From Clostridia bacterium (GTDB lineage: Bacteria; Bacillota; Clostridia; UBA1381), in assembly GCA_017443895.1 (NCBI GenBank), contig JAFSXU010000077.1:1-64000 (forward strand): 64,000 nt of DNA. The letters are read 5' to 3'. Shown here piece after piece: positions 8,851 to 62,063 of the stretch. The translations under genes and the position numbers were made by a program. The first letter of the stretch is position 1, and each line of letters opens with the position of its first letter. The notes under the pieces were generated by a model, which was not told the DNA's origin, did not search any database, and saw nothing but the letters and a program-made list of their open reading frames with translations.

Positions 8851-8918
8851 TATTGTATGAGAAAAGTTTCACTGTGAGTCCCGAAAAAGTGCGTCACAGA
8901 AATACACTTTGTATATAA

Positions 8919-9093
8919 GTGAAATATCAACTTTGTTGATGTGAAATAATTTACTGCGTAAATTGTGAAATAGAAATTTTACGATTTTGAGTGAAATGAA
9001 ATACGCCTTTAACATTTGCGAAGCAAATATTTCACAGCGTTGCTATTTCACATTGCGTAGCAATATTTCACACGCCGAAAGGCGTATTTCGCC
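8919..9093. repeat. Array of short hairpins punctuated by GTGAAAT / ATTTCAC
   Basis: About 175 bp made of small stem-loops separated by a fixed heptamer. The left part has GTGAAAT spacers with hairpins ATCAAC-TTT-GTTGAT and AATTTAC-TGC-GTAAATT. The right part has the inverted spacer ATTTCAC with hairpins ATTTGC-GAA-GCAAAT, AGC-GTT-GCT, ATTGC-GTA-GCAAT and ACGCC-GAAA-GGCGT. Stem sequences all differ while the spacer is constant and inverts midway. The apparent reading frame across it runs into tRNA-Gln and is not a gene. Confidence 0.8.
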
Positions 9094-9136
9094 AAAAAAA
9101 ACCGTCAATCTTGTATCAAGATTGACGGTTTTTTCT
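9094..9136. terminator. Bidirectional intrinsic terminator
   Basis: Stem AACCGTCAATCTTG/CAAGATTGACGGTT with A- and T-runs on the two sides. It ends the minus-strand tRNA-Gln transcript. Confidence 0.88.
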
Positions 9137-61394: not shown

Positions 61395-61471
61395 GGCCCG
61401 GTAGTTCAGTTGGTTAGAACGCCAGCCTGTCACGCTGGAGGTCGTGAGTTCGAGCCTCATCCGGGTCGCCA
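61395..61471 (+). tRNA. tRNA-Asp (anticodon GTC)
   Basis: Acceptor GGCCCGG/CCGGGTC, anticodon stem CCAGC/GCTGG with loop CTGTCAC, anticodon GTC, T-arm GAGTTCGAGCCTC, encoded CCA. Confidence 0.96.
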
Positions 61472-61503
61472 AAAAACGACAAGCGAAAGCTTGTCGTTTT
61501 TTG
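61472..61503. terminator. Terminator after tRNA-Asp
   Basis: AACGACAAGC-GAAA-GCTTGTCGTT with A-run and T-run. Confidence 0.92.
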
Positions 61504-61504
61504 T

Positions 61505-61528
61505 ATTATTCATTATTCATTATTCATT
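61505..61528. repeat. CATTATT tandem tract
   Basis: Three to four copies of ATTATTC, as at 21412-21440. Confidence 0.65.
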
Positions 61529-61532
61529 AAAC

Positions 61533-61603
61533 AAAAAAACAGAGGCTACACCGATAGGATGACTTCCGTTTCCGAAAGTGAGAGCCTATCCATCACCTCT
61601 GCT
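61533..61603 (-). ncRNA. Candidate small RNA, about 71 nt
   Basis: A consensus promoter lies just upstream. The RNA starts near 61603, folds as a long hairpin (CAGAGG..GGATAGG / CCTATC..GCCTCTG) and ends in seven U. It also contains AGAGGTG and a 15-codon frame (61593-61546, MDRLSLSETEVILSV), too polar for a usual type I toxin and with the ribosome-binding site too near its ATG. Non-coding is preferred. I do not recognise the family. Confidence 0.65.
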
Positions 61604-61609
61604 AAGCCG

Positions 61610-61638
61610 ATTATATCAAATGTTGTCTTAGATGTCAA
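61610..61638 (-). promoter_or_regulatory. Consensus sigma-A promoter of the small RNA
   Basis: Minus strand TTGACA, 17-nt spacer, TATAAT, perfect in both hexamers. Confidence 0.85.
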
Positions 61639-61706: not shown

Positions 61707-62063
61707 ATGATTAAATTTATCTGTTATCCCAAATGTTCAACCTGTAAAAAGGCGCAAAAGTGGCTTGATGAAAACAATATTGAATATCAGATACGGGACA
61801 TAAAAGAAGAAAATCCAAGCTATGAGGAATTGTCGACTTGGTATAAAATGAGCGGATTTGTGCTTAAAAAATTCTTTAATACATCGGGAATACAGTATAG
61901 GGCAATGGAGCTTAAAACAAAGCTTCCCAATATGTCAGAGGAAGAACAGTTAAAACTGCTCTCAACAGACGGAATGTTGGTAAAACGCCCGCTTGTTGTA
62001 GGTGATGACTTTGTTTTAACAGGCTTTAAGGAAAGCGATTGGGAAGATAAGCTATTGAAATAG
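61707..62063 (+). CDS. ArsC/Spx-family protein
   Basis: 118 residues, thioredoxin-fold. CSTC near the N-terminus (YPKCSTCKKAQKWLDENNIEY) is the CxxC redox switch of Spx/MgsR-like and YffB-like proteins; KRPLVVGDDFVLTGFKESDW is the ArsC-family end. Either a redox-sensing RNA-polymerase partner or a thiol reductase. GGAG site upstream; own short unit. Confidence 0.85.
   Translation: MIKFICYPKCSTCKKAQKWLDENNIEYQIRDIKEENPSYEELSTWYKMSGFVLKKFFNTSGIQYRAMELKTKLPNMSEEEQLKLLSTDGMLVKRPLVVGDDFVLTGFKESDWEDKLLK

Follow-up and report, generated by a model that had tools for sequence, protein, structure and literature searches.

A candidate small-RNA cassette of uncultured Clostridia and its antisense counterparts within giant polyvalent-protein genes

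The closest described counterparts of the locus presented here are RNA-OUT of IS10, whose structure is largely one stem-loop, and the plasmid antisense RNAs CopA and RNAI, which are of a comparable type. Antisense pairing within the interior of an open reading frame is less usual than pairing at the start site. Two other kinds of element share some of the same traits. Rickettsia palindromic elements are short palindromes that reach high copy numbers, both between genes and in frame within them, and that lack a dedicated promoter or terminator. In type III toxin-antitoxin systems, a structured RNA such as ToxI adjoins an RNase-type domain. RNA-OUT is a 69-nt antisense RNA (PMC5006887). The giant genes discussed below (Pfam LPD23, LPD3, MuF_C, and PBECR3) belong to the polyvalent proteins known from phages and conjugative elements; these proteins are mosaic, and RNase activity is predicted for their PBECR domains, among them MuF-C (PMC5512222).

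The cassette described here resembles RNA-OUT in its predicted length (~70 nt), its own promoter, its association with a mobile element, and its position on the strand opposite to a protein gene. It differs in that RNA-OUT covers the ribosome-binding region of the transposase gene, whereas the cassette is complementary to a linker inside giant ORFs, is present in several copies in certain genes, and is also found as orphans. Like the Rickettsia palindromic elements, it is short, palindromic, and placed both intergenically and in frame within genes; unlike them, it is present as one copy per genome instead of many dispersed copies, carries a strong promoter and a terminator, and lies mainly after one domain class. 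With ToxI-type RNAs it shares the setting of a structured RNA beside an RNase-type domain, but it consists of a single rod hairpin on the opposite strand, in contrast to the tandem RNA repeats found upstream on the same strand in type III systems.

The unit in the window and its homologues

The window, that is, the whole 64-kb stretch of DNA analysed, contains a compact unit between a tRNA-Asp gene and an ArsC-like gene, with the following features:

61633-61638, minus strand: -35 hexamer TTGACA, seen in the sequence
61610-61618, minus strand: extended -10, TG-A-TATAAT (hexamer 61615-61610, TG 61618-61617), seen in the sequence
61533-61603, minus strand: predicted 71-nt RNA, with a predicted +1 at ~61603 from the class rule that hairpins start 5-7 nt past the -10
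61538-61603, minus strand: rod hairpin, from the fold and the covariation in 12 homologues; outer stem AGCAGAGG/CCTCTGTT, inner stem GATAGG/CCTATC, apical stem ACTTTCG-GAAA-CGGAAGT
61533-61539, minus strand: U-tract UUUUUUU of the intrinsic terminator, seen in the sequence
61546-61593, minus strand: 15-codon frame MDRLSLSETEVILSV, ATG...TAG in the window copy, judged not a gene
61395-61471, plus strand: tRNA-Asp, with its own terminator hairpin at 61470-61503
61707-62063, strand opposite to the unit: ArsC-like gene

The first-pass annotation had described a perfect TTGACA-17-TATAAT promoter, a hairpin of about 71 nt ending in seven U, and an orientation opposite to both neighbouring genes, and all three are borne out by our analysis. 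The promoter, with a 17-nt spacer between -35 and -10, scores 12/12, is the sole perfect site within the 2 kb scanned, and is TG-extended in addition. The predicted RNA folds into one rod hairpin at -30 kcal/mol (shuffled mean -17.5, z -4.3), an energy matched by 0/200 shuffles, and its U-tract runs from 61539 to 61533, while the coordinates place the unit opposite to tRNA-Asp and to the ArsC-like gene. It is the only clean combination of promoter, hairpin, and U-tract in the window and a single-copy sequence in its own 2.7-Mb genome; therefore, the objection foreseen in that annotation, that many identical genomic copies would reduce it to a repeat, does not apply. Its 3' end points at the tRNA-Asp terminator, and several other orphan copies are similarly disposed. 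Between that terminator and the U-tract, TTCATTA is repeated three times in tandem (61509-61531, plus strand).

Searches of Rfam 15 at gathering and permissive thresholds returned no family for the unit, tRNA-Asp alone standing above gathering there; the best match touching the unit was HPnc0260 (E 4.6), far below gathering. Elsewhere in the window, a Gut-1 RNA match (RF01706, 59.8 bits) lies at 8900-9094 on the minus strand, directly downstream of tRNA-Gln. Past the end of this model, the sequence runs on as a succession of differing small hairpins with GTGAAATA-like spacers between them, and resembles a degenerate array of repeats rather than one RNA.

Homologues were sought with blast and a covariance model within the family, the latter as suggested beforehand, and with a degenerate pattern across 84,980 genomes. 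Eleven further copies were recovered, with one strong copy in each genome; every one comes from an assembly of uncultured Clostridia, most of these assemblies being named 'Lapin'. No copy was found by blastn in named phage and plasmid records, and exact-pattern scans of IMG/VR gave no match; a similarity to an alanine-racemase coding sequence (L009, L025) was judged to be due to chance. Across the 12 copies, 98.5% of the pair cells are kept and two-sided changes are seen at 10 of the 22 pairs, values reached by 0/500 shuffles, and pairing falls to about half or below once the partners are shifted by 1-3 columns. In most copies, the promoter is retained together with the hairpin, with the -35 hexamer or a near form of it (most degenerate in L073), so that promoter, hairpin, and U-tract are conserved jointly at 12 loci. 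The free-standing intergenic copies are those of the window, L068, L070, L071/L072, and L073, and the copy of L069 sits in a decayed fragment. The joint conservation of promoter, hairpin, and terminator across unrelated genomic locations, accompanied by compensatory changes, gives good sequence support for reading the window unit as a small-RNA gene that is structured and stands alone.

The alternative offered by the first-pass annotation, that the unit encodes a tiny peptide or antitoxin, did not survive this comparison. The 15-residue frame is present from ATG to TAG in the window copy, but its start is gone in L073 (ACG) and in L067, and the RNAs of L074 and L071 contain no in-frame stop. 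The conserved start, frame, and stop of a small peptide gene are therefore missing across the homologues, and a coding function is hardly credible.

Cassettes embedded in giant polyvalent-protein genes

Four copies of the window type (L074, L075, L076, and L067) lie antisense within intact giant open frames of up to 2462 codons, and a further one, in L061, abuts a short frame with the same motif at its end. The embedded copies occupy ORF interiors, for example residues 375-409 of 2447, and in every case start directly after an LPD3 domain (PF18798), whose end reads HRILMPDGSxFxFSD. One of the giant proteins with an embedded copy, P0002, carries Pfam LPD23, and named phages gave weak matches to the giant proteins. 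One hairpin arm, although conserved as DNA, is translated in different frames (KTEAT, NNRGYN, or KQRFTN), which points to selection on the nucleic acid and not on a peptide. In a rumen viral contig (L077), a cassette composed of TTGACA-17-TGgTATACT, a hairpin, and a U-tract is again found antisense just after LPD3, with the architecture of the window type and an almost wholly different sequence. Rfam gave no non-tRNA match in the loci carrying embedded cassettes. In the L067 locus (~2265-2420; frame of 2462 codons), as also in L039, two different tandem hairpins stand behind a single antisense promoter.

The extent of this arrangement was assessed across 70 giant ORFs comprising 135,213 codons, gathered by LPD3 matches together with a set seeded by an unrelated domain, KVVYHGT, and a cassette was defined as a promoter, a hairpin near +1, and a U-tract. 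By this definition, 42 cassettes were found antisense and one sense, against 2-4 in synonymous-codon shuffles; when only extended -10 promoters with 17-nt spacing were considered, the counts were 25 antisense, 0 sense, and 0 in the shuffles. Chance and codon-usage artefacts are excluded by these two controls, the sense strand and the synonymous shuffles. A strong hairpin with a U-tract follows 31 of the 33 unique TG-extended antisense promoters, compared with 61 of 528 random positions (12%). The hairpins are mostly 60-75 nt long and mostly begin 5-7 nt past the -10, where transcription would be expected to start, and their sequences are very diverse across the class, with little common recognition sequence. 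A further 13 antisense cassettes came from a set of 139 shorter ORFs at these loci; the ORFs that hold them have 150-700 codons and are perhaps fragments of giant genes.

At the protein level, the promoters coincide with a linker motif, [SNTD][IV][PSATL][QNS]-x4-V[NK] (core [ST]I[PS]Q-x4-V[NK]), which occurs 15 times at exactly this 4-residue spacing and 0-4 times at other spacings. Its valine codon is GTC in 15/15 cases, against a background of 20%, the base preceding this codon is T in 15/15, and the Ile/Val codon is ATA or GTA in 15/15, so that the DNA read antisense is TTGACA-17-TGnTATACT. On this codon usage, the motif encodes a predicted antisense extended -10 promoter. The peptide motif is retained in one reading frame and may be under some protein-level constraint, which would not explain the codon choice. 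A second peptide ending, [ST]I[SPA][DEQ][LF]L-x-x-V[NK], found at the ends of LPD3, MuF-C, or PBECR domains (L085, L086, L089, L082, and L083), also encodes a putative extended -10 promoter on the antisense strand, with a hairpin after it. Together, the promoter codons and the covarying hairpin support the existence of a cassette class selected at the nucleotide level. A literature search, with most subscription journals outside its coverage, returned no description of such cassettes, and the terms antisense, small RNA, and linker are all absent from PMC5512222.

The cassettes are located at domain junctions of strongly mosaic proteins, the mosaicism of this protein class being already documented (PMC5512222), and the palindrome could thus act as DNA, for instance as a domain-shuffling site between giant genes. 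We regard this as very improbable, because it would account neither for an extended -10 at a fixed spacing of 17 nt nor for a U-tract on one strand only and a hairpin that starts at the predicted +1.

Regarding the neighbouring domains, the segment just upstream of the cassette was assigned to LPD3 in 13/20 cases, to MuF_C in 3/20, and to PBECR3 in 2/20 (up to 18 of the 20 tested together). This association is partly ascertained, as LPD3 matches were the main route by which the giant loci were gathered; only a few cassettes, those from the set seeded with KVVYHGT, are free of the bias. In our best reading, the cassettes reside mainly opposite the coding strand of giant polyvalent-protein genes that belong to phages or prophages of Clostridia, directly after RNase-like domains of the LPD3/MuF-C/PBECR kind. 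The presence of such a domain directly before the cassette, the predicted RNase activity of PBECR domains (PMC5512222), and a structure that is maintained while the sequence varies would also suit an RNA acting as the partner of the adjacent BECR-type RNase domain, whether as inhibitor, decoy, or substrate, along the lines of a protein-RNA antitoxin. Nevertheless, this seems unlikely to us: hairpins so diverse offer scant common recognition sequence, ToxI-like repeats are absent, and coding on the opposite strand implies that RNA and domain are not co-expressed.

Movement of the cassettes

In two genomes (G028 and G022), a cassette is placed between a 359-codon gene and the terminator of the neighbouring gene; the corresponding site of G023, G025, and G026 (protein 95-96% identical) is intact except that ~135 bp are absent. 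A second, independent empty site was found by comparing G022 with G025. These two orthologous empty sites support the view that cassettes of the window family insert as compact ~135-bp units, the cassette itself measuring about 130 bp. Both insertions adjoin the terminator of a convergent neighbour, as the window copy adjoins that of tRNA-Asp, and G028 and G022 differ by compensatory changes in the inner stem (AUGGG/CCCAU and ACGGG/CUCGU). At the L073 locus, the single available relative is too diverged to reveal an empty site, and at the tRNA-Asp/arsC locus of the window, the relatives lack synteny.

The empty sites, the copies in unrelated intergenic places, and allele types that are independent of the flanks would also be expected of a selfish palindromic cassette, comparable to Rickettsia palindromic elements or MITEs, which has its own promoter and no regulatory role and whose in-frame insertions are tolerated. 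We find this doubtful. Each genome has one copy rather than many, no terminal inverted repeats were noticed by eye at the two empty sites, and direct repeats that could represent a target-site duplication, as known from MITEs, were not above chance at the two insertions. In addition, the embedded copies are placed non-randomly, mainly after one domain class, and the strong selection on the promoter would be left unexplained.

Proposed role of the antisense RNAs

We favour, with about even confidence, a reading in which the window unit represents a mobile cassette present as an orphan in the chromosome and the likeliest role of its class is an RNA-OUT-like antisense silencing of giant genes with RNase domains. 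The sigma-70 promoter would drive a 71-nt hairpin RNA ended by factor-independent termination, and this short RNA would pair with the complementary segment of the giant-gene mRNA. Pairing may then silence or destabilise that mRNA, as with RNA-OUT or CopA, and the RNase-domain protein would thereby be kept off in the lysogen. The embedded copies, with a predicted promoter and terminator of their own opposite the putative target gene, have the layout of cis-antisense RNAs, but they do not overlap the ribosome-binding region of that gene. This speaks against the silencing role, since RNA-OUT targets a ribosome-binding site, whereas the target here would lie within an ORF.

As a search of the window's own genome for LPD3 gave no match, the orphan copy may be directed in trans against an incoming element that shares its sequence type; alternatively, it is perhaps a decaying remnant. 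A broader proposal can be made, although we attach a low probability to it: type-specific antisense hairpin RNAs would follow many RNase-like domains in the giant phage-type genes of Clostridia, their promoters would shape the protein linkers, and the bacterial orphans would provide sequence-specific immunity against phages with the matching gene. If the cassettes are transcribed, they would represent an overlooked class of phage regulatory RNA inside protein-coding sequence, beyond the reach of scans of intergenic regions, and a recurrent linker motif of polyvalent proteins would be the shadow of an antisense promoter. Transcription would likewise suggest how phages silence RNase-like effectors in lysogens and would predict a simple form of phage immunity based on orphan RNAs.

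Under antisense silencing, RNA and target would come from the two strands of one DNA segment and so match in any case, which may leave the hairpins free to split into distinct sequence types. This fits the pattern observed among the homologues, in which hairpin types are common to loci with different flanks.
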